A DNA stretch of 64,000 nucleotides, taken from Mesorhizobium sp. 113-3-3. Its GTDB lineage: Bacteria; Pseudomonadota; Alphaproteobacteria; Rhizobiales; Rhizobiaceae. Location of the stretch: positions 2,546,501-2,610,500 of the forward strand of contig NZ_AP023243.1 in NCBI RefSeq assembly GCF_016756495.1. The letters are read 5' to 3'. Positions within the stretch are counted from its first letter, which is position 1. Each line of letters begins with the position of its first letter. Both the position numbers and the translations under genes were made by a program. Below the pieces are notes generated by a model. It ran no database searches and had not been told where the DNA came from. It saw nothing but the letters and a program-made list of their open reading frames with translations. Positions 47,480 to 62,905 of the stretch are shown piece by piece.

Positions 47480-47493
47480 TTGACGGGCATCAA
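47480..47493. promoter_or_regulatory. FNR/FixK-type box upstream of uvrA2-like gene
   Basis: TTGAC-GGGC-ATCAA, nine of ten positions of the FNR consensus TTGAT-N4-ATCAA, centred about 175 bases before the start codon. It is the only notable signal in the 348-base gap 47314-47661. Confidence 0.6.
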
Positions 47494-47661
47494 TTGATGC
47501 GGATCGCATCGCCCCCAATGTTTCTGCCTGCCCGGCCGTGAGCGGCACAGGGCAGCCCGTACGATCCCGGCGCTGGGTGGATCGCTGGACAAATCGATAG
47601 CGATCATTGTGGTCGCGACGGCGCTCTGCCGCAATGGGTTCTACCTGGCCGGTCTAAGCAC

Positions 47662-50244
47662 ATGCTGGAAATCAACAAGCCTCCATTTCAAGCAGCGGCA
47701 GAAGAGCGTCCGCACGGCTTCGTCCGCGTGCGTGGAGCACGCGAGCATAATTTGAAGAACATCGATCTCGTCATTCCCCGCGATGCCCTTGTGGTGTTTA
47801 CCGGCGTCTCCGGCTCTGGAAAGTCGTCGCTGGCCTTCGGCACGCTCTACGCGGAGGCGCAGCGGCGCTATCTCGAATCTGTGTCGCCCTATGCGCGGCG
47901 CTTGTTTCATCAGATGGCGGTTCCCGAGGTCGACGAAATCGATGGTCTGCCGCCGGCCGTGGCCTTGCAGCAGCAGCGCGGCTCGCCTTCTACGCGCTCT
48001 TCCGTCGGCAGCGTGACGACGCTGTCCAACCTCCTTCGGATGCTGTACTCGCGCGCCGGCGACTATCCACGGCACCAAGCGCATCTCGATGCCGAGGCCT
48101 TCTCGCCCAACACGCCGGCGGGAGCCTGTCCCCAATGCCATGGGCTCGGTCGGGTCTACGAGGCGACCGAACGCTCGATGGTGCCGGATGATTCCAAAAG
48201 CATTCGCGAGCGCGCCATTGCCGCCTGGCCGCCTGCTTGGCATGGCGGCAACCTGCGCGACATGCTGACTAGTCTAGGCTACGACGTCGATCGCCCCTGG
48301 CGAGAGCTGCCGAAAGAAGCCCGCGACTGGATCCTGTACACCGACGAGCAGCCGGTGGTCCCGGTCTATATCGGGTATGACCGGGACGAGGCGCGACGCG
48401 CGATCAGGCGCAAGGAGGAGCCGAGTTACCGCGGCAATTTCTCCAGCGCCAGGCGATATGTGCTGAACACCTTTGCCACCACTGAAAGCGCGTCGATCAA
48501 GAAGCGGGTGGCACGCTACATGGTGAGCACCGAGTGCCCGCTCTGTGACGGCAAGCGGCTTCGCCGCGAAGCGCTGTCCGTCAAGTTCGCCGGTTTCGAT
48601 ATTGCCGATATATCGGGGATCCCGCTGGCAAGGCTCGCTGATCTCTTGCGCCCCTATGCGGAAGCCACCGCTGCCACCTTGACCAAGCTTAAGACGCGGC
48701 ATCCGGAGAAGGCGTTGGTAGTGCAGCGGATCGCCGAGGACCTCAGCGGCCGGCTGACGGTTCTGCTCGACCTCGGGCTTGGCTATCTTTCACTGGAGCG
48801 AAGCACCCCGACGCTGTCACCGGGGGAACTTCAGCGCCTGCGACTTGCAACCCAAGTGCGTTCCAATCTGTTCGGCGTCGTCTATGTGCTAGATGAGCCC
48901 TCCGCCGGACTTCATCCTGCGGATACGGAGGCGCTGTTGACGGCGCTCGACCGATTGAAACTCTCAGGCAATTCGCTGTTTGTGGTCGAACACGATATCG
49001 ATGTGATCCGCCATGCGGATTGGATCGTCGACGTCGGCCCAGGTGCCGGCGATCTAGGCGGCCATGTGCTCTACAGCGGTCCGCTGCAAGGGTTCGAGCA
49101 GGCAGAGCAATCGCAGACCCGCCGGTACCTGTTCGGCGACACGATCGTGTCAGATCGAACGCCGCGCCCGCCCAAGGGCTGGTTGCGGCTGCGCGGGGTC
49201 AGCCGGAATAACATCCATGGGCTTGATGTCGATTTTCCGCTGGGAGGATTTACCACCGTGACTGGCGTTTCCGGTTCGGGCAAGTCGAGCTTGGTGAGCC
49301 AGGTCCTGGTGGAATTGATTGCAAAGCAGCTCGGCCATCCCATCCCCTCGATCGATGATGAGGGCGACGAACTCGAGCGGACCGTAGTGACGACACGGGG
49401 CGGTCGGATCGCGGGCGGGGCGCAGGACGTCAAGCGCCTGGTGGTCGTCGACCAGAAAGCGATCGGACGCACACCACGGTCCAATCTCGCCACGTATACG
49501 GGGCTGTTCGACCACGTTCGCAAAATTTTCGCGGCCACCAAGTCGGCGCGCGCCCGCCACTATAACGCTGGACGCTTTTCCTTCAATGTTGCCAAGGGCC
49601 GCTGCGAGACCTGTGAGGGCGAAGGCTTTGTTTGCGTCGAACTGCTGTTCCTGCCCAGCGTCTATGCGCCATGTCCAAGTTGTCATGGCGCGCGCTTCAA
49701 TCCGCAAACCCTGGAGATAGAATACCGCAACAAGAACATCGCCGCGGTCCTGGGAATGACGGTCGATGACGCCTTCGCCTTTTTTACCGAGGAGCCGAAG
49801 GTGCGCCGATCCCTCGAAGTGCTGCGGCAGGTTGGCCTCGGCTATCTGCGGCTTGGCCAGCCGGCGACGGAGCTTTCCGGCGGTGAGGCCCAGCGGATCA
49901 AGCTTGCCTCCGAGCTCCAGCGGCCGCAGCGCGGCGATACGCTCTACATCCTTGACGAGCCCACCACGGGACTACACCCGGCTGACGTCGAGAGGCTCAT
50001 CGCGCAACTCGATGGGCTTGTCGAATCCGGCAATACCGTCATCGTGGTGGAGCACGACATGCGTGTCGCCGCCGGCAGCGACTGGGTCATGGACATTGGC
50101 CCTGGGGCAGGTGACGAAGGCGGTCGTGTGGTCGCGTTCGGCAGGCCAGCCGAGGTCGCGGGATCGTCCATAAGCCGCACGGCGCCATATCTGTCGCGGT
50201 TCAGGGCTCGGCTCGCGCCCAATCGCCTTGAAGCACTTCGGTAG
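47662..50244 (+). CDS. UvrA2-type excinuclease ABC subunit A paralogue
   Basis: An 860-residue UvrA-like ABC ATPase. Both nucleotide sites are complete: [11 protein letters not shown] near residue 48 and again near 535, signature motifs LSPGELQRL and LSGGEAQRI, Walker [14 protein letters not shown] and [12 protein letters not shown]. Zinc modules [16 protein letters not shown] and [16 protein letters not shown] are present. The UvrB-binding insertion of canonical UvrA (normally about 940 residues) is missing, since [10 protein letters not shown] runs almost directly into the first zinc module. Such class II proteins are linked to DNA-damage tolerance or drug resistance rather than standard excision repair. 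Confidence 0.92.
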
Positions 50245-50351
50245 AATCGCGGGGATCCGCTCAAGCGCTCGGCTGTCAACATGAGCAGCACACGGACGGC
50301 GTGCACGACACATACCAGAGGCTCGACGTTGGCGATCGCGCAATTGCCGAG

Positions 50352-50365
50352 TTGACGGTCGTCAA
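50352..50365. promoter_or_regulatory. FNR/FixK-type box upstream of the cNMP/thioredoxin-reductase fusion gene
   Basis: A perfect dyad TTGAC-GGTC-GTCAA, centred about 148 bases before the start codon, in the 262-base gap after the uvrA2-like gene. Confidence 0.65.
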
Positions 50366-50506
50366 TGACAAGGCTCAGCGGGCGCTTAATGGTGGGCTTC
50401 CACTATGCTCGCGACAAGGCGCTCTCACGGCAGACAAGTTCGCGAAATGCTTGTCGCACAGAGGTCGCGCGATCGAGGCCGTGAGAAGAACCCGTGAGGA
50501 TATCTG

Positions 50507-52234
50507 ATGCCGAAGATCGATCCGAGCAATGAGAGGATGTTTCCGAAATTCTCGGCGGCGGAAATCGATCGGCTTTGTCGCTTCGGCCACCACCAGCGTT
50601 ACAGCAAGGGCCAGCCGCTATTCGTGACGGGAGAGATCGCGCCTGGTATGTTTGTGCTCAAGAGCGGTCGCGCCCAGGTCACGCGGCGCGACCTGCTGGG
50701 ACATCTCACTCCGATCGTGGAAGTGACTGCAGGCGATTTCGTCGCCGAAGTGGAACAGCTTTCCGGTCGGCCGGCGCTGGTCGACGTTCACGCGGTCGAC
50801 GATATCGAGGCCATTCTCATTCGGGCTGAGGACCTGCGCAGGGTCATGATCGCGGAGCCCGAGATTGGCGACCGCATCATGCGCGCGTTGATTCTGCGAC
50901 GCATCTCCCTGATTGAAGCGGGCGCCGGCGGACCGGTGCTTATCGGGCCCGAGGACGCTCCCGATGTCGTGCGGCTGCAAGGCTTCCTCGCCCGGAACGC
51001 CTATCCATTTGAGGTGCTCGATCCTGCGAGTGATCGCGATGCCGCGGATCTCGTCAACAAATATGCGCCGGATGCGAGCGACCTTCCCCTGGCGGTGTGT
51101 CCCAAGGGCACCATTTTGAAGAATCCCAGTGAGTCAGACCTGGCACGCGCCCTTGGAATGGTGCGGAGGGACGGTCGAGATCGGACGTACGATGTCGCCA
51201 TCGTGGGGGCCGGCCCCGCGGGTCTTGCCACCGCGGTCTATGCGGCGTCCGAGGGGCTTTCGATCGTGGTCTTCGACGCACACGCGTTCGGAGGACAGGC
51301 CGGCGCGAGCGCGCGGATCGAGAACTACCTCGGATTCCCAACCGGCATATCTGGCCGCGACCTCACCGGGCGTGCCTATGTGCAGGCGCAGAAATTCGGC
51401 GCAGAAATGGCGATTCCGTCCGGCATCGCGCGCCTGGACTGCGGTCAAAATCCGCTGATGCTGGAACTCGCTGACGGAGATCGCACCAAGGTTTCGTCCG
51501 TTGTCATTGCGTCCGGCGCACGCTACCGTCGGCTTGACGTCCCCAATCTTAGCGAGTTCGAAGGGCGAGGCGTGTGGTATTGGGCCTCGCCCATCGAGGC
51601 GCGGCTTTGCCAGCGCGAGGAAATCGTCCTTGTCGGAGGCGGCAACTCCGCGGGACAGGCTGCCGTGTTCTTGCGAGACTACGCCGCCAAGATCTGGCTG
51701 GTCGTGCGTGGGCCAAGCCTGTCCGAAAGCATGTCACAATATCTCATTGACCGGATCTATGCGACCAGCACCATCGAAGTGGTGACCAATACGGAGGTGG
51801 TTGCGCTGTCCGGCTCACCGCAAGGACAGCTTCAGCGCATCCGGTGGCGCAACCGGGTTTCAGGCGAGGAAACGGACAGGTCGACTCGGCATCTGTTTTT
51901 GTTCATCGGAGCCGAGCCGGAGTCTGGGTGGCTGCACGGCTGCGTTTCTCTCGACGCCAAAGGCTTCGTGCAGACGGGTGCGAGCGTGCCGCAGGCGACA
52001 CGCTCCGCCATCGACGGGGCAGAACCGCTGTCACTGCAATCCAGCATCCCTGGCGTCTTTGCGGTCGGGGACGTGCGCTCCGGTTCCGTCAAACGCGTCG
52101 GCGCTGCGATCGGCGAAGGAGCCGAAGTGGTGGCCCAGCTACATACTTATCTCGCCAGCATAGCAAAGGGCGCCGCCGTTCACGCCCCGTCCGCCACCGA
52201 GCTTCCGCCTGTCTCTTCGCCTTCAACAAGGTGA
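50507..52234 (+). CDS. Cyclic-nucleotide-binding domain fused to thioredoxin-reductase-like flavoprotein
   Basis: A 575-residue fusion. Residues about 15-135 are a CRP-type cNMP-binding domain (QPLFVTGEIAPGMFVLKSG). About 140-205 is a small thioredoxin-like module (FLARNAYPFEVLDP, LPLAVCPKGTIL). About 225-550 is a thioredoxin-reductase-like FAD/NAD(P) domain (VAIVGAGPAGLATAVYAASEG, VLVGGGNSAGQAAVFL, GVFAVGDVRSGSVKR). The usual CxxC redox pair is absent: the position reads WYWASPIEA. It therefore cannot work as an ordinary thioredoxin reductase. The fusion type recurs in rhizobia and actinobacteria; its role is unknown. Confidence 0.88.
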   Translation: MPKIDPSNERMFPKFSAAEIDRLCRFGHHQRYSKGQPLFVTGEIAPGMFVLKSGRAQVTRRDLLGHLTPIVEVTAGDFVAEVEQLSGRPALVDVHAVDDIEAILIRAEDLRRVMIAEPEIGDRIMRALILRRISLIEAGAGGPVLIGPEDAPDVVRLQGFLARNAYPFEVLDPASDRDAADLVNKYAPDASDLPLAVCPKGTILKNPSESDLARALGMVRRDGRDRTYDVAIVGAGPAGLATAVYAASEGLSIVVFDAHAFGGQAGASARIENYLGFPTGISGRDLTGRAYVQAQKFGAEMAIPSGIARLDCGQNPLMLELADGDRTKVSSVVIASGARYRRLDVPNLSEFEGRGVWYWASPIEARLCQREEIVLVGGGNSAGQAAVFLRDYAAKIWLVVRGPSLSESMSQYLIDRIYATSTIEVVTNTEVVALSGSPQGQLQRIRWRNRVSGEETDRSTRHLFLFIGAEPESGWLHGCVSLDAKGFVQTGASVPQATRSAIDGAEPLSLQSSIPGVFAVGDVRSGSVKRVGAAIGEGAEVVAQLHTYLASIAKGAAVHAPSATELPPVSSPSTR

Positions 52235-52461
52235 TGTTCGGCCTTGTCGCGGCCTTACGCATCAAGGCAAGGTAACGCCCGTTCGTTTCTTCGACTGGCA
52301 ATACGATCTGGCAATGGGTCTCAACGAGACGGAAGCGAGTACCCGCAGTGGCATCGCAGACATCCCGGCATGAGCGCAACCAACGACTGATGTAAGCGCC
52401 AGAGCGGCAGCACCTATCCGACGCGAGCGTTAGGTATAGAATTGGACCGATGCTGATCTCG

Positions 52462-52881
52462 TTATTCATGCGGTTCTAGCTTTTGGCGCTCGGCTTCAGC
52501 GGCATGCCAATCTCGATCGATCGAACCTTCCGCTGCCTTATGGAAATACTGAGAACAGACGAGCCATCCTTTAAGAGGTCGGAGCAACACTATGCATGCC
52601 CCGATGGTCAGAGGCAGGCTTGTGAGAATGTGAATCCAGAAAGGTGGCTCAAACCGCAACTGCAACCAAAGAGCAAACGCAAGGGCTGGGAACGCAACAA
52701 TCGACATTGAGAAGAATGCAGGCCCGTCAGCGGGATCGGCGAAAGAAAAATCGAGTCCACAGACATCACAACTTGGAGCAAGTTTCAGGTAGCCTGCGAA
52801 CAAGTGTCCCTGCTGACATCGGGGGCACTGACCCTTGAAACCGGTTAGGATCGGATTCGTGGTTTCGTTATATTCAGTCAT
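52462..52881 (-). CDS. DUF983-family membrane protein
   Basis: A 139-residue protein with an N-terminal zinc-ribbon-like pair (CPRCQQGHLF and CDVCGLDFSF) followed by two hydrophobic segments (FFSMSIVAFPALAFALWLQL and IHILTSLPLTIGACIVLLRPL), as in DUF983 of alphaproteobacteria. The function is unknown; in some genomes the family lies near cytochrome oxidase genes. ATG 52881 (MTEYNETT) is chosen over the longer form at 52905. The 227-base gap 52235-52461 before it holds no gene. Confidence 0.85.
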   Translation of the reverse strand: MTEYNETTNPILTGFKGQCPRCQQGHLFAGYLKLAPSCDVCGLDFSFADPADGPAFFSMSIVAFPALAFALWLQLRFEPPFWIHILTSLPLTIGACIVLLRPLKGWLVCSQYFHKAAEGSIDRDWHAAEAERQKLEPHE

Positions 52882-52910
52882 GACCGGACCCCATGGCGCA
52901 ATCAAAATCC

Positions 52911-53534
52911 TCAGAAGATACTGTCGCGGCGGGCCTTGTGCCGTTCCTCGATTAGGGGGCGGCAGGTCTGCTCGACTGCCTTTACTGCAAGGTCAAGCCG
53001 CTTCCTCAGAGCGTCTCCCTCCGTTCCTCCCCAACCGATCGCGGCCTCCCAGTGATCGCGTTCCTGTTCTCGTCCGGCTGACTCATCGCCGTGGGTCCGG
53101 ACCAAATTGCGGGCTGAATCGACAATTTCGTTGTGAATTGCCTTTATCTCATCGAACGGGCGTGCAGCCTCTTCCCCGAAGTAAGCCATGAAGCGGTAAC
53201 GGCTCGCGCGGAGCTCGGAGAACACCTGGCTTTCCTTCGTCAAGCGGTCCACGGGGGCGATGATCTCGCTCTTTTCGGGCCCATCATCGTCCTGGCCGAT
53301 TTCGGGCCGAACAGTTTCACCTTGATCGGCATCCGAGGCGGGAAACCGCGCCCATGTCAAAATATCCCTGGTCCGATAAAACCCAGCCAAAACCTCTTCT
53401 GCAAGTTCGGCCTTCCGCCTGCCGACCGTTTCGGCCCGCCATGCATTGAGCCCGCGCATCCCGGCCCAGCCAGCCAGAAGGGCCGCCATGCCGGTCATTA
53501 GATTGGCCCAAGCGGAAACCCATTCAGGTGACAC
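52911..53534 (-). CDS. Membrane-anchored hypothetical protein
   Basis: A 207-residue protein with one N-terminal hydrophobic segment (LMTGMAALLAGWAGMRGL, about 12-30), followed by a charged, mostly helical cytoplasmic part (RRKAELAEEVLAGFYRTRDILTWARFP ... EAARPFDEIKAIHNEIVDSARNLV). It resembles the many single-pass proteins of unknown function in proteobacteria; I assign no family. It lies 29 bases upstream of the DUF983 start in the same direction, so the two may be cotranscribed. Confidence 0.7.
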   Translation of the reverse strand: MSPEWVSAWANLMTGMAALLAGWAGMRGLNAWRAETVGRRKAELAEEVLAGFYRTRDILTWARFPASDADQGETVRPEIGQDDDGPEKSEIIAPVDRLTKESQVFSELRASRYRFMAYFGEEAARPFDEIKAIHNEIVDSARNLVRTHGDESAGREQERDHWEAAIGWGGTEGDALRKRLDLAVKAVEQTCRPLIEERHKARRDSIF

Positions 53535-53672: not shown

Positions 53673-54254
53673 TCAAGAGTTCAGCCTTGGCCTTGGCAAT
53701 ACCGTGTAGACGCGAGTGATAAATGCCTGGAATTCCGCCATGTAGCTGCGAAGGAAATCGGCCGTCGTCTCGTCAGTAACTTCGCCTTCATCGGTGATGA
53801 GGCCAGGCTTGAACTGGATGTAGGCTTCCGGTGCATTCATCTGCGGTGAATTGCAGAAGCTAAGTACGCTGCGCAGGCTTTGCTGGGCCACTGCAGTGCC
53901 GATCGCGCCCGGCGACGTCCCGATTACTGCTGACGGTTTGCGCGCGAACGAGTTGGTCCCGTAGGGACGACTTGCCCAGTCGATGGCGTTTTTCAGACCG
54001 CCGGGGATCGACCGGTTGTACTCCGGTGTCACGAACAGCACCGCATCGACCACTGCGATGGCATGCTTGAAGGCTTTGGCAGGTGGGGGAAAATTGGCGT
54101 CGTAGTCGTAGCTGTAGAGCGGTAGGTCCCTGAAGGAAATTTCCTCCATTTCGAGTTCCGGCGGAGCGAGAGCCACCAGTGCCCGGGCTAGCTTGCGATT
54201 GATGGAGGCCGAAGCCAGGCTTCCTATAAAGTAGCCAACCTTATATGCGGTCAT
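53673..54254 (-). CDS. NADPH-dependent FMN reductase (chromate/quinone reductase-like)
   Basis: A 193-residue flavodoxin-like reductase. The FMN phosphate loop GSLASASINRKLA lies at about 11-23, PEYNRSIPGGLKNAIDWASRP at about 80 and GTSPGAIGTAVAQQSLRSVL near 115, matching the ChrR/YieF group that reduces quinones and, incidentally, chromate. It uses NAD(P)H in the cytosol. AGGAAAGAGG precedes ATG 54254. Upstream on the same strand is a short broken frame with its own strong ribosome-binding site and an FNR-type box. Confidence 0.9.
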   Translation of the reverse strand: MTAYKVGYFIGSLASASINRKLARALVALAPPELEMEEISFRDLPLYSYDYDANFPPPAKAFKHAIAVVDAVLFVTPEYNRSIPGGLKNAIDWASRPYGTNSFARKPSAVIGTSPGAIGTAVAQQSLRSVLSFCNSPQMNAPEAYIQFKPGLITDEGEVTDETTADFLRSYMAEFQAFITRVYTVLPRPRLNS

Positions 54255-54546
54255 GGGACACCTCTTTCCTGGACGTTCATCCGATATGCCGATCTGGCGA
54301 AGACCGCGAAAGGCAAAGACACCGCCTGCGAAGTCCAACGGCCGCGGCGTCGCCTGCGTCGCCCCGGAGGCTGCGCGGTGGAAGCAAAAGGCGTCATTGG
54401 CGTGCTGCGAACGCGGTTCTCTCGCAACGTTGCTCTCTTCTTGGCTGGTCCCGGCGCCGCTGATGTCAACGCCGAACTCCTTGATGCGGCTTTCATGCTG
54501 AGACCGAGCGCGAGGATGCTATCGTGACGATGCTTTTGATGCTCAT
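54255..54546 (-). pseudogene. Possible frameshifted small gene upstream of the FMN reductase
   Basis: A very strong AAGGAGCAAGGC precedes an ATG at 54546 that opens only 17 codons (MSIKSIVTIASSRSVSA, stop at 54493-54495). Coding-like sequence continues in another frame (IKEFGVDISGAGTSQEESNV, then ANDAFCFHRAASG), running open into the reductase frame. This looks like a small gene broken by one or two frameshifts. The other reading is a 17-residue leader peptide. Confidence 0.35.
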
Positions 54547-54626: not shown

Positions 54627-54640
54627 TTGACGGTGGTCAA
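54627..54640. promoter_or_regulatory. FNR/FixK-type box in the FMN reductase/hypothetical divergent gap
   Basis: A perfect dyad TTGAC-GGTG-GTCAA. It is centred about 87 bases before the leftward small frame at 54546 and about 149 bases before the rightward gene at 54783, so it could serve either. Confidence 0.6.
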
Positions 54641-54782: not shown

Positions 54783-55277
54783 ATGAGCTCTCTTCCTCGT
54801 GTGACCGAATGGACCCGAGAGTTTGTATCAAGGCAATTTGATGATCTCGGGCCGGAGGCATGCCTGGCGGAAATCACCGAGTGCCTGACGCGCGAGAACC
54901 CGGAGCTCCTTGACATGGCGCGCAAGTGCGCTGCCGATGTCGACAACGGCCCGAAAGTCATGGTTGGCTTTGGCATGTTCTATCAGCTCATGGTTTCGGC
55001 GTCGTCCGACACAAACCAGAAGCAAATCTTGCATCCATTGCCCCGCGTGACGGCGAAAACGCGCGATTCGCTCGTGCGCGAAATCGACGAAGAGGGCTCC
55101 GAACGGTTCACAATGCGGACCGTCGAAGACCTGGAGCGCTCCAATCCAGAGCTTATGCAGATGGCGCATGGCTTCGCCTCTCAACATCCGGATTACTTGC
55201 GTGTGATGCAGGGCTTTGCCTTGCTTTACAGATCCCTCGTCGTTCAGTCGGGGGCTGACCGGAAGTATCTGCACTGA
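54783..55277 (+). CDS. Hypothetical protein with an internal duplication
   Basis: A 164-residue soluble protein of unknown function. It has two similar halves of about 75 residues: LPRVTEWTREFVSRQFDDLGPEA...LTRENPELLDMARKCA...MVGFGMFYQLMV, and LPRVTAKTRDSLVREIDEEGSER...LERSNPELMQMAHGFA...MQGFALLYRSLV. This internal repeat suggests a helical, dimer-like fold. ATG 54783 has AGAAGGAAA upstream; an earlier in-frame ATG lies at 54738. An FNR-type box upstream places it with the other redox-responsive genes. Confidence 0.75.
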   Translation: MSSLPRVTEWTREFVSRQFDDLGPEACLAEITECLTRENPELLDMARKCAADVDNGPKVMVGFGMFYQLMVSASSDTNQKQILHPLPRVTAKTRDSLVREIDEEGSERFTMRTVEDLERSNPELMQMAHGFASQHPDYLRVMQGFALLYRSLVVQSGADRKYLH

Positions 55278-55376: not shown

Positions 55377-55778
55377 CTATGGGCGGCGCAGGCTCCTAAC
55401 AAGAGGTTCATCTGCTATCGGCTTCTGCAAGATCGCCGCTACCTTTCCGCGCGCTAGCGGTGCGTCGGCGTAGCCTGTTAATACTACAGTGTGAATGCCT
55501 GTATCGTGCAGCCGATCGATGAGGGCATAGGACTGCTCACCATTTCGTAGATTGATGTCCACCAACGCAGCATCGATGGCGTGCTCGGAAATCAAACGCA
55601 GACCCTCGGCAACAGTGGCCGCTGGTCCGATCGTTTCCGCCCCGTAAGCCTGAAGGAGCCTCTTCAAGCTTATGCCGACATCCCACGAATCTTCGACGAT
55701 GAGGACACACAAGCCACTTAGGCCCAAGGTGCCTGCTTCAGGCAATCCATCAGCATCCAACGAAGTCATGGGCAACAC
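55377..55778 (-). CDS. Single-domain response regulator (receiver only)
   Basis: A 133-residue receiver with the acidic pair ED at 29-30, phospho-acceptor Asp74 in ALVDINLRNG, and Lys in LQKPIADEPLV. No output domain is present, so it probably relays or quenches phosphate. It begins 30 bases after the HWE kinase stop on the same strand, making a kinase-receiver pair of the kind used in alphaproteobacterial light, redox and general stress pathways. Confidence 0.9.
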   Translation of the reverse strand: MLPMTSLDADGLPEAGTLGLSGLCVLIVEDSWDVGISLKRLLQAYGAETIGPAATVAEGLRLISEHAIDAALVDINLRNGEQSYALIDRLHDTGIHTVVLTGYADAPLARGKVAAILQKPIADEPLVRSLRRP

Positions 55779-55808
55779 GCGGCTCGCTATTTTTGAGAAT
55801 GTCCTCGG

Positions 55809-57299
55809 TTAGCGATTGGTGCCATCGACCGAACACTCAATTCTGCAGCTTACGCCATCTGTTCCGAACGCCAGATCTACCTCGCCTCCGAGCTCGAAGG
55901 GGATCAGATTGCGGATGAGATCGGTGCCGTATCCGACCCGCTTTCCAACTACCACAGTTGGGCCATCCAACTCGCGCCATACGAATTCCAAGTTCGCCGC
56001 ATCACCGTTCGACCCGCGGTTCCATGTGGCCGAGACCCGGCCATTCGGCACCGACAGAGCTCCATACTTCGCGGCATTGGTCGCGAGCTCGTGAAGCACC
56101 CTTGCCACGGCCTGAGTTTCGGCCGCGCCCAGGATGATATCCGGTCCACTGATGATAATATTCGTGCCGTTCACGTATGGCGCAAGCTGGTTGCGAACCA
56201 ACACATCAAGGCCGACCCCCTTCCAACCGCCTTGGCTCAGCAGCGTATGCGCGGCTGCCATACATTGGATGCGCCCATCGAGCGATTGAAGGAAGGTGTC
56301 AGCGGTAAGGCTTCCTTGGTGCGATGACTTTGCGACAGCTGCAACTTGAGCGAGGATGTTCTTTACGCGGTGGTCGAGCTCGGCGAGCAAAAGCTGTTGG
56401 CGCATCTCGATACGCTTGCGCTCGGAAATGTCGCGGCAAATGCTTGACGCCCCAATGATCCTGCCGTTCGGATCAATTATCGGGGAAATCGTCGACGAAA
56501 CATCGACCCGGCCCCCGTTCTTGTCTTGCCGAACCGTTTCAAAATTCTCGATGCCGTCGCCGTATGGGAGACGTTTGAGATTTGCCACTTCATCGGTTGG
56601 CTGATCTGCCGGAAATAGGATCGCGACCGGCTTGCCGATAACTTCCTCGGCCATGTAGCCGAACATTCGGCCCGCGCCCTTGTTCCAACTGATTATCATG
56701 CCATTCAAGTCTTCGCCGAAGATTGCGTCGTGACCGGACTCGACGATGGAGGCGACCCGCTGCACCGCGTTCAGATTGAGCCAAGTCTGATAGGCGGTCG
56801 CTGCGAAGGCACTCAAGCTGGTCATCACGCGCAAGTCTTCCGCATCGAAGCGGCGACTGGTGTCATGCGCGACGACCCAGATTGTGCCGACTGCTTCAGC
56901 CTTGATGTAGAAGGGAATCAGAAGTCCTTCCTCAAGAACAGGCCTGATGGGTTCCCAATAGGGGAAATCGACTTCGGGATGAGAGCATATCATGGCGACG
57001 CCCTGGTCAAGGACCGTGCCGCATGGACCAAAGTTGCGCGGTGTTCCACCGTTTAAGTGAGGAGCCCACTGCCCGGCGATGGCGCGCCAATGAAAATTAC
57101 TCTTCCCGTCACCTTCTTCCAGGATGCTGAGCCCGGCGGAGTGCGCGCGACATAGGCCTAAAGCGGTATCGGCGAGCTTCCGCAAGATGCCTTCGGGCGA
57201 GCTCGCCAATTCATGCGCCAAAGTGATCAGAGCTTGGTTCTCTGCAGCGTAATTGGACGCGCGCGACGGACGCCGCCGCAATTCCTCCGCGGAGATCAT
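55809..57299 (-). CDS. GAF-PAS HWE-family sensor histidine kinase
   Basis: A 496-residue soluble kinase. GAF covers about 22-175, PAS about 180-295, then the HWE kinase core with His310 in LAELDHRVKNILAQV, ELATNAAKYGAL as N-box, and the signature Trp-x-Glu in FVWRELDGP. This family is enriched in Rhizobiales. The partner is probably the receiver at 55377. The cue, sensed in the cytosol, is unknown. Confidence 0.93.
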   Translation of the reverse strand: MISAEELRRRPSRASNYAAENQALITLAHELASSPEGILRKLADTALGLCRAHSAGLSILEEGDGKSNFHWRAIAGQWAPHLNGGTPRNFGPCGTVLDQGVAMICSHPEVDFPYWEPIRPVLEEGLLIPFYIKAEAVGTIWVVAHDTSRRFDAEDLRVMTSLSAFAATAYQTWLNLNAVQRVASIVESGHDAIFGEDLNGMIISWNKGAGRMFGYMAEEVIGKPVAILFPADQPTDEVANLKRLPYGDGIENFETVRQDKNGGRVDVSSTISPIIDPNGRIIGASSICRDISERKRIEMRQQLLLAELDHRVKNILAQVAAVAKSSHQGSLTADTFLQSLDGRIQCMAAAHTLLSQGGWKGVGLDVLVRNQLAPYVNGTNIIISGPDIILGAAETQAVARVLHELATNAAKYGALSVPNGRVSATWNRGSNGDAANLEFVWRELDGPTVVVGKRVGYGTDLIRNLIPFELGGEVDLAFGTDGVSCRIECSVDGTNR

Positions 57300-57599
57300 G
57301 GAACGGACGTTAGGTTTGAGCTGCGGCCAACCGTCGTGGTGCGCTGCTTCGCCGACTGCCTCGCATGCTCGGCTTGCACTTAATCCACCTAACGCCGCGA
57401 CCTGAGCGATAAGTCACATCTCGCGCGGCTTGCCTATCCTAACTTAGATCATTCAGGATGTCATCATTTACGGATGCTATCATGCGCGGTCGAATGTGGA
57501 GAGAATCGATCGAAGCCGGGCTCGGGATACGCGCCGTGCCGAATGTTATGAGACCGCGCCTCAGTCCCCGCATTCCCCGAAAGTGACCTGCCGAACTAA

Positions 57600-57626
57600 C
57601 ACGCCCTGCTGCGATAGCAGGGCGTG
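57600..57626 (-). terminator. Hairpin downstream of the PRC-barrel gene
   Basis: A perfect 11-bp stem CACGCCCTGCT/AGCAGGGCGTG with a 5-base loop lies 20 bases after the PRC-barrel stop codon. The following minus-strand bases (TTAGTT) make only a weak T-run. The 347-base gap 57300-57646 otherwise shows no gene. Confidence 0.6.
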
Positions 57627-57646
57627 GAGGAGGGTGATTACGGCGG

Positions 57647-58078
57647 TTATTTTTGTTGGTATTTGAACTCCGGCATCTTCTGGAGTTCTTCCTTGCTTCC
57701 TTGGGCGAGCACGATATTCGAGCCATCGGAGCTGATATCCAAGGCGTTGTAGGGGATGGCGACGAGGTAGCCGCCGAGACCGAGGAAGCCGCCGACCTGG
57801 AGGACGGCAAACAGCACCTTCTCGCGATCGACGATGAGGTCGTCGATCTTGCCGATCTTCTCGCCTTTCTGGTTTTGGACCTTGGCGCCGACGAGTTCGG
57901 AGGCGCGGTAACCTTTCGCCACAGCCTTTACATCGACGTCCAACACAACGACGTTCTGTGAGAACGCCGGCCGTGTCGCTGAGGGTAGGAAGATGGCGCT
58001 GGTGAGGAGCGTGCTTGCGCCGACCGCAAGCACAAGGTGAAGGCTGAAATACTTGTCGGAGGCGCTTTTCTTGTTCAT
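57647..58078 (-). CDS. Exported PRC-barrel domain protein
   Basis: A 143-residue protein with an N-terminal signal or anchor (LHLVLAVGASTLLTSAIFL, about 14-33). A PRC-barrel follows at about 58-130 (YRASELVGAKVQNQKGEKIGKIDDLIVD, VLFAVLQVGGFLGLGGYLVAIPYNAL). Exported PRC-barrels of this type are stress-induced in rhizobia; the function is unknown. An FNR-type box lies about 115 bases upstream. Confidence 0.88.
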   Translation of the reverse strand: MNKKSASDKYFSLHLVLAVGASTLLTSAIFLPSATRPAFSQNVVVLDVDVKAVAKGYRASELVGAKVQNQKGEKIGKIDDLIVDREKVLFAVLQVGGFLGLGGYLVAIPYNALDISSDGSNIVLAQGSKEELQKMPEFKYQQK

Positions 58079-58186
58079 GACGGATCTCTCTGAGCTTGGG
58101 GAAGCGACGCTGGGGATCGAGGCGACGTGCCCTTCACCTCAGCTTCGCAGGCTCGGTGATCATCAATTGAAGGTGGTTTTTGCGCC

Positions 58187-58200
58187 TTGACGCCTATCAG
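58187..58200. promoter_or_regulatory. FNR/FixK-type box upstream of the PRC-barrel gene
   Basis: TTGAC-GCCT-ATCAG, followed by TTTCGCG. The surrounding 60 bases (58145-58208) resemble the region around the next box (58608-58671), sharing TCGCA(G/A)GCTC(G/C)GTGATC upstream. The two promoters may have been duplicated. Confidence 0.6.
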
Positions 58201-58251
58201 TTTCGCGACTTCCTTGCTGGTCAAGGCACCAGGGGAGTCGCCGCAGAATCT

Positions 58252-58560
58252 TCACTTCGCCGGCTTGTCAGCGATGATAACCAATTTATGAATTTCGGGT
58301 GGCTCTGCGAACATGTCGCCTGCCTTGATCTTCTCCATCAATGCGGCCGCAACCTTTCCGTTGAGATGCGCGTCACGTCCGGCTTCGTCGTCGAATGTAT
58401 CGAATATGGCGAAAGAGGCAGGTCCTCCCTGGATGGCATACCATGAGATGGTGCCTGGTTCGGCGTTGACCAGCGGAACCGCCGATCGCAGGAAGTTCGC
58501 AACCTCTTCCTCCTTGCCGGGCTTGGCTACAATCGGAACGTACAGCGCAAACTTTGTCAT
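58252..58560 (-). CDS. Antibiotic biosynthesis monooxygenase (ABM) family protein
   Basis: A 102-residue dimeric alpha-beta barrel protein: KFALYVPIVAKPGKEEEVANFLRSAVPLVNAEPGTISWYA, then FAIFDTFDDEAGRDAHLNGKVAAALME. The YgiN/ABM family acts on quinol-like or small aromatic substrates without cofactors, but a specific role cannot be read. It has its own FNR-type box about 96 bases upstream and lies after the HdeD-Prx-DsbA operon. Confidence 0.88.
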   Translation of the reverse strand: MTKFALYVPIVAKPGKEEEVANFLRSAVPLVNAEPGTISWYAIQGGPASFAIFDTFDDEAGRDAHLNGKVAAALMEKIKAGDMFAEPPEIHKLVIIADKPAK

Positions 58561-58649
58561 TGTGGTCTCCTGTTGGAATCTTCGCAGATGATTTGGGTTG
58601 CTCGGCCTCGCAAGCTCCGTGATCGTCGATTGCCGTTGGTCTCGGCGCG

Positions 58650-58663
58650 TTGACGCCCATCAG
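58650..58663. promoter_or_regulatory. FNR/FixK-type box upstream of the ABM gene
   Basis: TTGAC-GCCC-ATCAG within GCGTTGACGCCCATCAGTTT, centred about 96 bases before the ABM start. Confidence 0.6.
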
Positions 58664-58684
58664 TTTCGCGCCATATGTTTCCGA

Positions 58685-59227
58685 TCAACGCACCGGGGCA
58701 AGAGCATCCATCACAGTCTGGATCGATGCCGAGAGTTCTGGTGCGCTGTAGCCGCCATTGTAGCGCAACCCGTTGACAAAGAAGGTCGGGGTCCCGTTGA
58801 CGCCGCTGCGGACGCCGCCGATAAAGTCGGCCTGTATTTTGTCGCGGTGGAGCGACCGTGCAATCGAATCTCGAAGCCCCATTTGCGGCAGTTTCAGGGA
58901 CCCGGCCAAGGTGAACAGGAACCGGACGCTGAGCTGATGCTGGTTTGCAAAAATGGCGTCGTGCATTTCCCAGAACAGACCATGATCGGCGGCATATTCC
59001 GCGGCTTCCGCCGCGATCGGAGCGACAGGATGAATTTCCGCCAGGGGAAAGTGCCGGAAGACAATGCGCAGCGCCTGGCCGTACCGGCCCTCCAGGAAAT
59101 GCATCACCGGATTGGCGGCAGCGCAATGAGGGCATTGATAGTCGCCATATTCCACAAGGGTAACGATGGCATTCTGCGCGCCGCGCGCGTGGTCACGCTG
59201 ATTGACGGGCGCTCTTAGGGTCGACAT
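58685..59227 (-). CDS. DsbA-like thioredoxin-fold protein without signal peptide
   Basis: A 180-residue DsbA-family protein. The active site CPHC lies in EYGDYQCPHCAAANP near residue 36, the helical insertion at about 70-140, and the cis-proline loop GTPTFFVNG near 150. No signal peptide is visible from ATG 59227, which follows GGAGAAG, so it probably works in the cytosol as a reductase or isomerase. Its start lies within the 3-prime end of the peroxiredoxin gene (35-base overlap), so the two are coupled and may act together. Confidence 0.88.
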   Translation of the reverse strand: MSTLRAPVNQRDHARGAQNAIVTLVEYGDYQCPHCAAANPVMHFLEGRYGQALRIVFRHFPLAEIHPVAPIAAEAAEYAADHGLFWEMHDAIFANQHQLSVRFLFTLAGSLKLPQMGLRDSIARSLHRDKIQADFIGGVRSGVNGTPTFFVNGLRYNGGYSAPELSASIQTVMDALAPVR

Positions 59228-59705
59228 TTTTCTTCTCCAGACTTGGCATTTGATCCAGGGCGTCCAAAATGCCGTCAGCCCCGGGATTGACTGCGATCGG
59301 CGAGAGATAACTCCAGGCGATGGCGCCCTTTTCGTCGACGATAAAAAGTGCGCGGGCGCTCTCACCGACCTCGTCGCGATAGACTCCATAGGCGCGTGAG
59401 ATTTCTCCCTTGGGATGGAAATCCGCCAGCAAAGGAAAATGGATGTTTCGGTCTCTTGCGAAGGCTTGGTGGCACCATGCTCCGTCCACGGAGATCCCCA
59501 CTAACTCGGCACCCCTTTTGCGGAATTCGGAAAGCACGTGGTTGTAAAGCGTCATCTGATCGCCGCAGACTGGGCTCCAGTCGGCCGGATAGAACGCCAG
59601 GATCACGCGCCTGCCCGCGAATTCTGACAGCGATAGGGTCTGGTCGGGCGTCACATGAAGATTGAAGTCTGGTGCCTTCGTTGCAGGTGCTAGGATTGAT
59701 GGCAT
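59193..59705 (-). CDS. Peroxiredoxin (AhpC/TSA, BCP-like)
   Basis: A 170-residue peroxiredoxin. The peroxidatic Cys47 lies in PADWSPVCGDQ and a second Cys78 in GAWCHQAF could resolve it. The context YP(A)DWSPVC differs from the typical YPxDFTxxC by a Trp. It reduces peroxides in the cytosol, possibly recharged by the DsbA-like protein whose gene overlaps its 3-prime end. It is second in the HdeD-Prx-DsbA operon, 23 bases after HdeD. Confidence 0.9.
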   Translation of the reverse strand: MPSILAPATKAPDFNLHVTPDQTLSLSEFAGRRVILAFYPADWSPVCGDQMTLYNHVLSEFRKRGAELVGISVDGAWCHQAFARDRNIHFPLLADFHPKGEISRAYGVYRDEVGESARALFIVDEKGAIAWSYLSPIAVNPGADGILDALDQMPSLEKKNVDPKSARQSA

Positions 59706-59728
59706 GGTTCGCTCCTTCGAAGATTGCT

Positions 59729-60337
59729 CTAAGCGGCATTGGCGGCAGCCAGATTGCTAGGGCGGGAGGTGCGTTGGGAACGCAATTTGTAGGCCAGCAT
59801 CAGCAGCGTCACGCCCAGAACCAGAGCATGAGCTCCGACCCAGAAGGTGAGGACCAGCGCACCGACAAACGGCGAGATTGTGAGTACTAATCCGAGAAGT
59901 ATGCTTGCGATGCCGGCGATTGCCAACCAGACGCGGCCATGATCGATCTTGAGCCGGAACACAGAAATCAGCATGAATACACCTGAGACAAGCGCCCAGG
60001 CCGCGACAAGAAAGACGAAGGCGAGCACTGTGATGCCCGGCCATAGGATGGCCACGGCGCAGGCTGCGATGCCAAGGATGCCGTTGAGGAGCAGCCAAAC
60101 CCAATGCTCTCCCTTGCGTGCCCCGCGCACTGCCATGATGATCCCGAAGACGCCGTCGATCAAACTGAAGGCGGCAAAGACCACGACCAGCGATAGCATT
60201 GTGACAACAGGCATCGCGAAAGCAGCGATGCCAAAAAGAATCGCGACGACGCCACGTAGCGCGACAGCCCACCAATTGTTGGCGAGTATGTCGTTCATCG
60301 CCTCAGTCCTCGCATTGTCGTACGATGAGATGGTCAT
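59729..60337 (-). CDS. HdeD-family membrane protein
   Basis: A 202-residue inner-membrane protein with six hydrophobic segments in three related hairpins (WWAVALRGVVAILFGIAAFAMP, WLLLNGILGIAACAVAILWPG, WLAIAGIASILLGLVLTISPF), the HdeD/DUF308 pattern. E. coli HdeD is linked to acid resistance; rhizobial members are stress-induced. ATG 60337 follows GGAGAG, and an earlier ATG lies at 60349. It heads an operon with a peroxiredoxin and a DsbA-like gene. Confidence 0.9.
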   Translation of the reverse strand: MTISSYDNARTEAMNDILANNWWAVALRGVVAILFGIAAFAMPVVTMLSLVVVFAAFSLIDGVFGIIMAVRGARKGEHWVWLLLNGILGIAACAVAILWPGITVLAFVFLVAAWALVSGVFMLISVFRLKIDHGRVWLAIAGIASILLGLVLTISPFVGALVLTFWVGAHALVLGVTLLMLAYKLRSQRTSRPSNLAAANAA

Positions 60338-60506
60338 TGTGCTCTCCATTCGGACTTGAGATTGCTGGCCTTCGCTGGTGATGCGACTGTCGACCTTTGT
60401 GACCTCGGGTGCGCTTAGGCAGGGGAGCCTCCCGGTGATTGGCCCTGCCGCATACGCCGGCCAAGCGCTCTATCGCCGACTCCACTTCCCATTTCTCGCA
60501 CTGCCG

Positions 60507-60531
60507 AAGACCAGTTCCTGCGTCAGGTTCC
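60507..60531 (-). promoter_or_regulatory. Weak EcfG/RpoE2-type promoter match upstream of HdeD
   Basis: Read on the minus strand, GGAAC (60531-60527) is followed after 18 bases by TT (60508-60507). The -10 reads TCTT instead of CGTT, and the site is about 170 bases before the start codon. It could be chance. Confidence 0.25.
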
Positions 60532-60585
60532 GCAGCCTTCGGAGCATTTCGCGGTGAACGCTAGAAGACCTTCGCTACCCCGGCG

Positions 60586-60599
60586 TTGATGACCATCAG
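60586..60599. promoter_or_regulatory. FNR/FixK-type box between HdeD and aldo/keto reductase genes
   Basis: TTGAT-GACC-ATCAG, nine of ten consensus positions, centred about 73 bases before the aldo/keto reductase start and about 255 bases before HdeD. The 328-base gap contains no gene. Confidence 0.65.
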
Positions 60600-60665
60600 T
60601 TTTGCGGACATGGCTGTCCGATAGGATCGCAACGATCCGCTAGCGCAGCAGGGGAAAAAGGTTTC

Positions 60666-61514
60666 ATGCCCACGACCATCCTCCGGACAACGCGATTACA
60701 AACCGGCGAAGAGGTTCCGGTTCTCGGCCAGGGGACCTGGGGCATGGGAGAGAAGCCGAACCGTCGCGCCGACGAAGTCTCAGCGCTCAGGCTCGGCCTC
60801 GACCTCGGCATGTCGCTTATCGACACCGCCGAGATGTACGGCGATGGCGGCGCGGAGGAGATTGTCGGTGAGGTCGTCGCCGGACGGCGCGACGAAGTTT
60901 TTATCGTCAGCAAAGTTTTGCCAACCCATGCCTCGCGCCTCGGCGTGGCGACCGCGTGCGCCAACAGCCTGAAACGGTTGCGCACCGACCGGATCGACCT
61001 TTACCTCCTGCATTGGCGTCTCGGGACGCCACTTGCAGAGACGGTCGCGGGTTTCGAGTTGCTCAAAGCTGCGGGAAAAATCCGGCATTGGGGCGTCAGC
61101 AATTTTGATATTGCAGATATGGTCGAACTCGCTGGCGTTGCTGACGGAAAGAGCGCGCAGACGAACCAAGTGCTCTACAACCTGATGAGGCGCGGCATCG
61201 AGTACGATCTTCTGCCTTGGTGTCGTCAGCGCGGAATTCCGATCATGGCCTATTCGCCAGTGGAACAGGGCGTCCTGGCGGACGACGGGCGTCTCGCCAA
61301 GGTCGCCGAGCGGTACGGCGTGAGCCGGTCGCAGATCGCGCTTGCCTGGGTACTGCGCCAAGAGGGCGTCATTGCCGTTGCGAAAGCGAGCAAGCTGGAT
61401 CATGTCCGGGAAAATCGCGCCGCGCATGATATCCGAATCATGCCCGAGGACTTGCATAACCTTGATCGCGCCTTCCCGCCGCCAACCGGGAAGCGCCCGC
61501 TCGAGATACTGTAG
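60666..61514 (+). CDS. Aldo/keto reductase
   Basis: A 282-residue (alpha/beta)8 NADPH-dependent reductase. The catalytic tetrad is visible as Asp and Tyr in LIDTAEMYGDG, Lys in FIVSKVLP and His in YLLHWR. The cofactor end has VAKASKLDHVREN. It resembles the YeaE/2,5-diketogluconate-reductase group. It probably detoxifies reactive aldehydes or reduces keto sugars. An FNR-type box lies about 73 bases upstream. Confidence 0.92.
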   Translation: MPTTILRTTRLQTGEEVPVLGQGTWGMGEKPNRRADEVSALRLGLDLGMSLIDTAEMYGDGGAEEIVGEVVAGRRDEVFIVSKVLPTHASRLGVATACANSLKRLRTDRIDLYLLHWRLGTPLAETVAGFELLKAAGKIRHWGVSNFDIADMVELAGVADGKSAQTNQVLYNLMRRGIEYDLLPWCRQRGIPIMAYSPVEQGVLADDGRLAKVAERYGVSRSQIALAWVLRQEGVIAVAKASKLDHVRENRAAHDIRIMPEDLHNLDRAFPPPTGKRPLEIL

Positions 61515-61599
61515 AGCATATGTGGGTTTAGCTTGGCCGCAAACCACGTGAGGATCAAGGTTTGGGCGAGCAGGACATCGTTCATTCTTATCGCGCCTG

Positions 61600-61785
61600 T
61601 CAGCGACGAGCACGGCTTGGCGTGTCGGAATCAAGCGTCAGGCCAGGGCTTGCCGAGGCGTTGGTCGGCGAATCAGCTTTCCGGGAAGCGCACCTTGCGG
61701 GCATTCCTTTGGTTGCATGTGTGCCCGGCCGGCCGAGACGCACCGAAACCCACGAGGGCGGATCACTCGCTGGGAAGGACTCCAT
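61600..61785 (-). CDS. Possible small protein with ESFPASDPPSW motif
   Basis: A 61-residue frame starting MESFPASDPPSW. This motif (ESFPASDPP) recurs in very short proteobacterial proteins of unknown function, which is the main support. There is no good ribosome-binding site, and the true start may lie upstream. It is the only candidate gene in the 414-base gap 61515-61928. Confidence 0.35.
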   Translation of the reverse strand: MESFPASDPPSWVSVRLGRPGTHATKGMPARCASRKADSPTNASASPGLTLDSDTPSRARR

Positions 61786-61928
61786 GCCGGCCAACGCCAC
61801 CAAGTCAACATCCCTGGCTTCTGGCTGACCTCGATCCTGCCTCGTCTTCCGGTCCAAGCTGCGTTCTCCTTCGTCGAGAGCCGGCCGGACCGTAGTACAG
61901 TCCGGCCGCCCGCGACGGCTTCTCCGGG

Positions 61929-62582
61929 TCACGGAGAAATGGTGATCCGGTTTTCAACCTTGGTAACGCCGGGCGCCCGCCATGCGGCGCGCTCGGCTTC
62001 CTGTCGTTCCGCCCAGGAACGCACCGTGCCGGTCAGGACCACCTCGCCGCCGCTCGCGGAAACGGTAACGCGACCCGCGTCGACTTGCGCCATCCGCTCC
62101 AGTGCATCCTCGATCTTGGCCTTGATCTCGGAAGGAGTGACGCGCGGTTTCAGGACCACCAGGTTCGAGATACCCGTGACGCCCTTGATCTTTCGTACGG
62201 CCGCCTCGGCTCGAGTGCGCTGGTATTCCCACTCGGCATTGCCTTCGAGTGTGAGCCAGCCGTTCTTCACAACGACCTTGATATTCTCGTGGGAATAGGG
62301 AAGCTCGTCCTTGATAGCCTCGACCGCGGCGCGGGCTATCTCCGGATCGGTCCGCCCGTTGCCGGAAGGCAGCCGAACCTCGATGTCATTGGCAACGCCG
62401 AGCACGCCCTTGACGCGCTTGGTTGCCTTTTCGGCTTGGTATTTCTGGCTGTAGCTGCGGACAAATCCACTCAGCGTGACAACGCCACTTTTTACTGCGA
62501 CGCCGATATCGGAGGCGTCGAGGTCGGGATCCCATTTGAGTTCACTTTCCACATCATGCTTGATGTCGCTATCCAGTCTCAT
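61929..62582 (-). CDS. Triple BON-domain protein
   Basis: A 217-residue protein made of three BON domains (about 3-70, 77-148 and 150-216), each with the pattern V..G.VTLSG.V...Y...A......V.GV..V.N (for example [27 protein letters not shown]). BON domains bind phospholipid or outer-membrane partners, as in OsmY, but no signal peptide is seen here, as is common for rhizobial triple-BON stress proteins. An FNR-type box lies about 102 bases upstream. Confidence 0.92.
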
Positions 62583-62677
62583 GTCGCAATCCTCCGTTCT
62601 GAGCTCATGGGCTGTCTGCGTGAAGCAAATCCGCTTGGCGCAGTTCGGCTAGAATATTTCAGGTGCAGGTGAGTGCG

Positions 62678-62691
62678 TTGACGGCTGTCAG
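62678..62691. promoter_or_regulatory. FNR/FixK-type box upstream of the BON gene
   Basis: TTGAC-GGCT-GTCAG, centred about 102 bases before the BON start codon, within GCGTTGACGGCTGTCAGTTT. Confidence 0.6.
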
Positions 62692-62891
62692 TTTCATTGG
62701 TTTGTGGCATTGGGCGTCCAGGAAGAAAAAGCTCGCCGCTGTAGGAAGCGGCGGGCAGTGGCCGTTAAGGAGGGGATAGAGGGATCAACCCGCCCGGACA
62801 GGAATTCGCTTCATGTCAGCCTGCGTTGGCAGATCTTCGATGCCGACACAGCAATGTTCTATTGATGACGTATCCACATGCTGTGAGCGCA

Positions 62892-62905
62892 TTGATGACC
62901 GTCAG
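62892..62905. promoter_or_regulatory. FNR/FixK-type box upstream of the cbpA-like gene
   Basis: TTGAT-GACC-GTCAG, centred about 113 bases before the cbpA-like start, in the 429-base divergent gap that also holds the box at 62678. No gene is seen in the gap. Confidence 0.6.

Follow-up and report, generated by a model that had tools for sequence, protein, structure and literature searches.

What joins a group of stress and redox genes in Mesorhizobium sp. 113-3-3 that carry nearly the same inverted repeat in their promoter gaps? The window, i.e. the whole stretch of DNA analysed, comprises 64,000 nucleotides (contig NZ_AP023243.1, positions 2,546,501 to 2,610,500; positions below count from its first base unless prefixed). 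A preliminary description had listed eight dyads of the form TTGAY-N4-RTCAR and read them as one low-oxygen or nitric oxide (NO) regulon of the FNR/FixK type. One Crp/Fnr-type regulon does appear to join the genes, with a narrower and sharper outline than that description had given it. A general low-oxygen or NO regulon is not supported, because an extended form of the box is absent elsewhere in the genome and a Crp/Fnr regulator is encoded adjacent to the cluster. Judging by sequence, it is likely that this FixK-like activator beside the block drives the genes, here called the island, through the boxes. The positions of the boxes, their exclusivity in the genome, their orientation, their spacing to a -10-like hexamer and their conservation together with the regulator and the island genes in many relatives were observed computationally.

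From these observations we infer binding, activation, two-component control, a stress function and a signal. The boxes would be operators of a FixK-like activator of the Crp/Fnr family encoded just past the window. It would bind AAA-CTGACGG-N-C-GTCAA-N-GC centred ~41.5 bp before the transcription start, recruit RNA polymerase in class II fashion and turn on a self-contained stress-survival island. The predicted targets are DnaK/GrpE/CbpA/CbpM, a DUF1269-like protein, BON, HdeD, a peroxiredoxin and DsbA, as well as the PRC-barrel, ABM, aldo-keto reductase, UvrA2 and cyclic nucleotide (cNMP)-TrxR proteins and probably the FMN reductase; other copies of the island would add hsp20 and KefB. The activator gene itself would probably be switched on by a FixL/FixJ-like system of the island, via a conserved element ~75 bp upstream.

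Operator boxes and promoter geometry

All eight dyads were found precisely where the preliminary description had placed them. They are listed with their -10-like hexamers (pattern NAnnnT):

47480..47493, box 1, before uvrA2; CAATGT at 47516-47521
50352..50365, box 2, before the cNMP-TrxR gene; AATGGT at 50388-50393
54627..54640, box 3, between the FMN reductase gene (- strand) and a hypothetical gene (+ strand); NAnnnT absent within 1 bp of the usual place, both directions
58187..58200, + strand, box 4, PRC gene; GATGAT on the - strand, 58159-58164
58650..58663, + strand, box 5, ABM gene; GACGAT on the - strand, 58622-58627
60586..60599, + strand, box 6, bidirectional; TAGCGT toward HdeD, TAGGAT toward the aldo-keto reductase
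62678..62691, + strand, box 7, BON gene; TATTCT, 1 base nearer than usual
62892..62905, + strand, box 8, divergent cbpA; NAnnnT absent within 1 bp of the usual place, both directions

Boxes 1 to 3 are palindromic (TTGAC-N4-RTCAA), and boxes 4 to 8 read TTGAY-N4-RTCAG, all in + orientation. In relatives with a full island, the counterpart of box 8 lies before the first hsp20 gene, with cbpA divergent; the hsp20 genes are absent here. Beyond the window, a further box precedes dnaK (C1:2613473), and a tenth, with one mismatch, precedes a DUF1269-like gene (C1:2614230).

A chance origin of the cluster was rejected by shuffling: 12 strand-wise dyad matches were found in the window vs. a mean of 0.72 in dinucleotide shuffles (a maximum of 3 in 100 shuffles). 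The bare pattern has 189 strand-wise matches genome-wide (96+93), and at this density ~0.38 matches are expected in 15.4 kb. The probability of at least eight was 2.9e-9 after subtraction of 21 palindromes, a number that was assumed and not counted. The rest of the window holds a single further match, at 16805-16818 (TTGATCAGGGTCAG), without the extended flank. The bare dyad pattern alone is modest evidence. Of the first 28 loci genome-wide (L001-L028), 27 have it inside an open reading frame (ORF) of at least 200 amino acids, which speaks against the dyad on its own; this test is crude and also flags 3/10 cluster boxes, via ORFs taken as spurious.

The extended motif, TTGAYGNNNRTCARTTT, was derived by extending the dyad after inspection of the box flanks. 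Its eight matches in the 7.73 Mb genome all fall within C1:2593977-2613489 (<20 kb), with none for the reversed pattern as a control. They comprise seven window boxes and one box beyond the window; box 2 lacks the TTT. The preliminary description had proposed that the top matches would precede fixNOQP or hemN, and the strict motif finds nothing outside the cluster. Among 60 relatives, one or two matches were found in each of 26 genomes and a cluster in none (the sister Mesorhizobium G437 was outside this sample). The TCAGTTT form, TTGAYNNNNRTCAGTTT, was searched in 14 genomes. Its matches were island-only in Bosea lupini (4/4), Fulvimarina (5/5) and Rhizobium BK399 (3/3), and 6/7 lie in the island in the own genome. 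Single matches in Mycoplana and Devosia ZB163 are island boxes, and Devosia RYN_484 has one match whose location was not established.

For the promoter geometry, 35 boxes hand-picked beside island genes were aligned in gene direction, three boxes without a known target being oriented by the motif. The alignment omits the boxes of loci L131, L134, L138 and L179 and single boxes of L127 and L137; the offset count covers 33 of the 35, two being too short. Toward the genes, the consensus reads AAA-CTGACGG-N-C-GTCAA-N-GC, followed by two isolated conserved positions downstream. These form NAnnnT, beginning 36 bases downstream of the first box base. With an inferred, unmapped start seven bases past the hexamer, the box centre lies 41.5 bp before the start. 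NAnnnT occurs at exactly this offset in 6/10 own and 17/23 other boxes, with at most 3/10 and 5/23 at other offsets and at most 4/34 in the opposite direction. The maximum among 5000 shuffles was 8, compared with 23 observed.

An unselected test set (n=16) consisted of every TCAG box of the sister Mesorhizobium and Sinorhizobium fredii NGR234 stretches, the palindromic boxes of which are outside the set. These two genomes had played no part in finding the NAnnnT rule. The controls were 25 own-genome TCAG sites outside the cluster, taken from the first 28 loci. NAnnnT was exact in 9/16 test boxes and within 1 bp in 16/16, and 12/16 were AAA-flanked; the corresponding values for the controls were 1/25, 4/25 and 0/25. 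For the NGR234 boxes alone, NAnnnT was exact in 5/8 and within one base in 8/8. This spacing from box to hexamer is that of a class II promoter of the Crp/Fnr family. The pattern of a FixK regulon, TTGA-N6-TCAA at class II distance, was found with TCA(A/G) as the second half-site and with the distance measured from the -10-like hexamer. For comparison, the accessible text of two papers places the FixK2 box of nosR 40.5 bp from one start (PMC5582078) and the pioABC box at -44.5 (PMC3050613).

The PRC and ABM promoters (58100-58190 and 58560-58660) resemble each other beyond boxes 4 and 5, toward the genes, which suggests promoter duplication. Such similarity is what would be seen if the boxes were a dispersed repeat or duplicated promoter fragments with no regulatory role. 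We regard this as extremely improbable, given the fixed -10 spacing, the gene-ward orientation and the conservation across genera; moreover, the flanks of all other window boxes differ by eye. A dispersed repeat was rejected on orientation and -10 spacing.

The adjacent regulator and its relatives

The window ends inside the cluster, and the adjacent 20 kb continues it. A 224-residue Crp/Fnr protein with a cNMP-binding domain and a Crp helix-turn-helix (HTH) domain is encoded there, at window-equivalent 68155-68829 (L067 4255-4929), 4.2 kb past the right end. According to the preliminary description, the window encodes no HTH-containing Crp/Fnr regulator; indeed, no listed HTH_Crp_2 match lies inside, and the nearest, C1:2614670, is just outside. 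Nine HTH_Crp_2 matches in the genome reach E <1e-9 (150 of 225 candidates scored).

The nearest curated family of the regulator is Caulobacter FixK, with 142.5 bits for the NF050806 equivalog vs. a cut-off of 300, which was not passed. The sequence points to a protein related to FixK, though not necessarily of the same orthologue group. Its nearest PDB structure is FixK2, while a DNR chain (3dkw) matches only at E=1.4e-4. Cysteines occur only at 109, 164 and 196, with none in the first 108 residues, so the N-terminal Cys motif for the [4Fe-4S] cluster of FNR is missing. That the local regulator is FNR was rejected for want of N-terminal Cys. A cNMP-type sensor and a Crp HTH without the Fe-S Cys motif define the FixK subgroup, and the regulator has this combination; the absence of the motif is given as a FixK feature in the available sections of PMC5582078. 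The label of a FixK-type regulon is supported by these sequence features.

The recognition helix of the regulator reads ETVCR. Helices of the ETVCR type are expected for TTGA-type sites. Cys196 lies within this helix and is kept in 28/31 aligned regulator rows; it is a possible redox switch and could make DNA binding redox-sensitive. By our own reading of the structure alignment, the regulator has Ser where Cys183 of FixK2 falls. In the tree, from which named FixK references are absent, 14/15 island regulators group into a single clade (97/95); L138 falls outside it, near the non-island L094 and L095. The own paralogue L070 groups apart from the island regulators. A single-sequence scan of the genome contigs with the regulator confirmed nothing.

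A kinase and a response regulator are encoded at the left of the cluster:

43120..43737, - strand, FixJ-type response regulator with REC and LuxR-type HTH (GerE) domains by Pfam; orthologues in the Bosea (79%) and Rhizobium (85%) islands
43744..45447, - strand, histidine kinase by Pfam, with a FixL-like kinase core and PAS below the Pfam cut-off; orthologues in Bosea (80%) and Rhizobium (83%)

The best PDB matches of the kinase are FixL kinase-core chimeras (261 bits, residues 318-564). All listed kinase-structure matches begin at residue 282 or beyond, and among them the sensor part has no match to a solved heme-PAS. A FixL-like kinase with a FixJ-like regulator, the composition of FixLJ, is thus found by PDB and Pfam. 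The two-component system was already noticed in the preliminary description; it belongs to the island, because close relatives travel with the islands in Bosea and Rhizobium. Such relatives adjoin the regulator gene in several islands. A 25-base element ~75 bp before the regulator start recurs in five other genomes (0-7 mismatches), and its 19-base core occurs once in the genome when up to two mismatches are allowed. We propose this element as a candidate response regulator site. At 55377-57299, the cluster also encodes an HWE-type histidine kinase and a lone receiver protein without a box, and other stress signalling could enter here.

The regulator search gave 617 matches, of which 120 were listed and 30 aligned with the query; 14 named loci were fetched, and genes at the relatives' loci were placed by tblastn. 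At least one island gene (two-component genes excluded) lies within 10 kb of the regulator relative in 13 of the 14. In Bosea, Rhizobium, Fulvimarina, Devosia, another Mesorhizobium and S. fredii NGR234 (on a megaplasmid), regulator relatives occur together with the same genes and boxes. Conservation of the boxes upstream of orthologues, as the preliminary description had anticipated, was found in many, not all, relatives. Bosea lupini and Rhizobium BK399 hold most of the island gene set. The islands of NGR234 (pNGR234b) and the second Mesorhizobium (G437) are fuller: they also contain three hsp20 genes, kefB and an additional BON gene. Boxes there precede dnaK, the hsp20s, BON, HdeD/second BON/aldo-keto reductase, and PRC.

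The gene content bears on two alternative regulons. No respiratory, denitrification or NO-detoxification genes were recognised among the 25 proteins covered by our Pfam scan. NnrR/DNR-type proteins use boxes related to those seen here. An NO-responsive regulon of this type is nevertheless highly improbable: the best family and structure matches of the regulator are FixK, not DNR, and denitrification and NO-detoxification genes are among those not recognised. Less improbable, though still unlikely, is a general low-oxygen regulon, in which the ordinary FixK/FNR of the host drive the genes under microoxia and the nearby regulator is one more input. The core box fits TTGA-N6-TCAA, and the kinase core is FixL-like. 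In the accessible part of PMC2908626, Hsp20 is found in a predicted alphaproteobacterial regulon table, part of which reads as that of FixK, and the available text of PMC11784457 describes a Rhizobium leguminosarum Hsp20 as microaerobically induced through FnrN. Given these precedents, a low-oxygen input is possible. Against this stands the confinement of the extended oriented motif to the island in the own genome, and of its TCAGTTT form in three relatives. Moreover, a separate FixK-like locus exists elsewhere in the genome (L124, C1:6218001-6238000, ~6.23 Mb). It holds four palindromic TTGAY-N4-RTCAA boxes, has a fermentation-type gene content (phosphoketolase, acetate kinase, ornithine carbamoyltransferase, an arginine-ornithine antiporter and CydDC-like genes) and is possibly the true microoxic regulon. 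The lack of recognised respiratory genes points the same way. Most likely, the island is regulated by its dedicated, adjacent FixK-like regulator rather than by the general low-oxygen network of the cell.

Several observations weigh against this regulator as the activator acting at the boxes. Another FixK paralogue of the genome could bind them too. At boxes 3 and 8, a -10-like hexamer is missing from the usual place, whichever direction is read. Half of the test boxes (8/16) belong to a closely related genome, in which most of the island proteins in common are 88-96% identical, and are therefore partly copies of the window's boxes. No box was found in the fetched DNA of 3 of the 14 named loci (L125, L129 and L132; the L125 contig ends 241 bases beyond the matched regulator stretch). 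TTGAYNNNNRTCAGTTT had no match in 4 of the 14 genomes searched, and as far as the fetched DNA goes, all matches in G329 and G338 and 3/4 in G341 fall outside the island. In eight further orthologues, the 25-base element before the regulator gene is weak or missing (9-12 mismatches), and the motif search showed no box before the two-component genes of the window.

Gene content and mobility of the island

Between the two-component genes and the right end of the window, the island genes are as follows (Pfam assignments; percentages are identities of orthologues):

45948..46538, + strand, GAF-domain protein; 65% and 69% in the Bosea and Rhizobium islands
46666..47313, + strand, MEDS-domain protein; 88% (Bosea), 92% (Rhizobium)
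47662..50244, + strand, UvrA-family excinuclease subunit (UvrA2 in the preliminary description) by NCBIfam UvrA models; 72% (Bosea), 92% (Rhizobium)
50507..52234, + strand, cNMP-binding/thioredoxin-reductase fusion
53673..54338, - strand, NADPH-dependent FMN reductase family protein; 94% in the sister Mesorhizobium island
54783..55277, + strand, hypothetical protein that recurs in islands (48-81% matches); no Pfam match, start 54783 chosen
57647..58078, - strand, PRC-barrel protein; up to 92%
58252..58560, - strand, ABM-family protein; island relatives
58685..59389, - strand, DsbA/thioredoxin-4 family protein; up to 90%
59193..59705, - strand, AhpC/TSA-type peroxiredoxin; up to 95%
59729..60349, - strand, HdeD-like (DUF308) membrane protein, NCBIfam HdeD below cut-off; up to 92%
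60666..61514, + strand, aldo-keto reductase; up to 93%
61929..62582, - strand, triple-BON (OsmY-like) protein; up to 94%
63012..63923, + strand, CbpA (DnaJ-type co-chaperone); up to 92%; start 63012 chosen, listed ORF from 62937

The adjacent 20 kb adds a MerR_2-domain protein (named CbpM here), GrpE, DnaK, the Crp/Fnr protein and a protein without a Pfam match, which we take to be DUF1269-like. The recognised island proteins are thus chaperones, redox and envelope proteins, a UvrA and signalling proteins. UvrA2, CbpA and BON, counted as regulon members in the preliminary description, do belong to the island. The cNMP/TrxR fusion is not special to it: ~55% identical copies are listed in many Mesorhizobium genomes, and an own paralogue lies at C1:846931 (56%).

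Boxes 7 and 8 are 200 bp apart, with no recognised gene between them. The region 62583-63011 looks like a deletion scar, because relatives with full islands hold two or three hsp20 genes there. A tblastn search with the Bosea proteins over 110 kb spanning the island revealed no copy of hsp20 or kefB; loss in this lineage would be the simplest reading.

The regulator is present in 3/146 Mesorhizobium genomes at E <=1e-40, the own genome included; among 297 sampled genomes of the order, it reaches E <1e-50 in only two others. The NGR234 island lies on a megaplasmid typed as conjugative. The GC content is 59.9% in the island and 63% in the flanks. Patchy distribution, conjugative megaplasmid and GC shift are consistent with horizontal transfer. 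An element boundary of the island was not found, and the search for a tRNA as insertion point gave none in 46 kb of own flank; the window has one tRNA-Met at 39762, 3.3 kb left of the response regulator. In Bosea lupini, a tRNA-Thr lies ~600 bp before the regulator gene (L128 9328-9402), a possible insertion point of the island there. On an Azospirillum brasilense plasmid (L185), a regulator relative (51%) is encoded within a large stress locus that has three palindromic boxes and genes for ClpB, DnaK, DegQ, Hsp20, CbpM, a DnaJ-type protein, a universal stress protein and TrxC.

More broadly, we see about an even chance that Hyphomicrobiales, perhaps also Azospirillum, carry mobile, self-regulated stress-survival islands, each with its own kinase, response regulator, FixK-like activator and an asymmetric operator orthogonal to host FixK/FNR; a redox-sensitive helix Cys may be part of this. 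If so, the host would gain a complete inducible programme of chaperones, redox proteins and DNA repair by one transfer. The list of boxes becomes a testable regulatory unit, in which the regulator, operator, promoter geometry and targets are named. Our open-licence literature search found no paper recognisable as describing the island. The available passages of a paper on the NGR234 bacteroid transcriptome do not mention it, and the terms 'heat shock', 'Hsp20' and 'FixK' are absent from its main text.

Comparison with known systems

By analogy, the island may work like a FixLJ-FixK cascade driving an island similar to the transmissible locus of stress tolerance (tLST), also called the locus of heat resistance. 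The low-oxygen-activated locus lxa of Burkholderia cenocepacia is likewise a stress locus tied to a FixK/Anr-like regulator, according to the available description in PMC6127331, on which this comparison is based. It differs in its six universal stress proteins, and its suggested regulator, BCAM0049, does not by number adjoin the listed stress proteins M0316 and M0319.

With tLST, the island shares a patchy distribution and, in its full copies, Hsp20s, HdeD, a thioredoxin-fold protein and KefB (accessible sections of PMC8290217). In contrast to tLST, it contains DnaK/GrpE/CbpAM, BON and UvrA2, no clpG-like gene lies near it in the own or sister genome, and Hsp20 is absent here. A ClpB_D2-small match was likewise not found near the island in these two genomes. 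The island is not a tLST, since these core genes were not found (Hsp20 in 110 kb, ClpB_D2-small near the island). A ClpB_D2-small protein (Clp-type ATPase) is encoded ~19 kb from the regulator in NGR234 (L184 ~1075-1314), which may bring that island nearer to tLST. Regulation differs as well: the island has its own Crp/Fnr regulator, whereas tLST has the MerR-like Orf1 and is described as constitutively expressed in the available part of PMC8290217. The island would be an alphaproteobacterial counterpart to tLST that occurs in soil bacteria and plant symbionts and carries its own inducible switch.

The FixLJ-FixK systems of rhizobia and Caulobacter, including FixK2 of Bradyrhizobium, share with the island a FixL-like kinase core and a FixJ-type regulator, a FixK-subgroup activator without the N-terminal Cys motif, a TTGA-N6-TCA(A/G) box and class II spacing. 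Unlike FixLJ, the sensor part of the island kinase has no match to a solved heme-PAS among the structure matches listed. Unlike FixK2, the regulator has Ser at the presumed Cys183 position but Cys in the recognition helix, and its operator has an asymmetric CTGAC half-site with an A-tract. The predicted targets are stress and chaperone genes at one locus instead of respiration or nitrogen fixation genes. Here, protein quality and redox defence, not respiration, appear to be under the control of a FixK-type protein.

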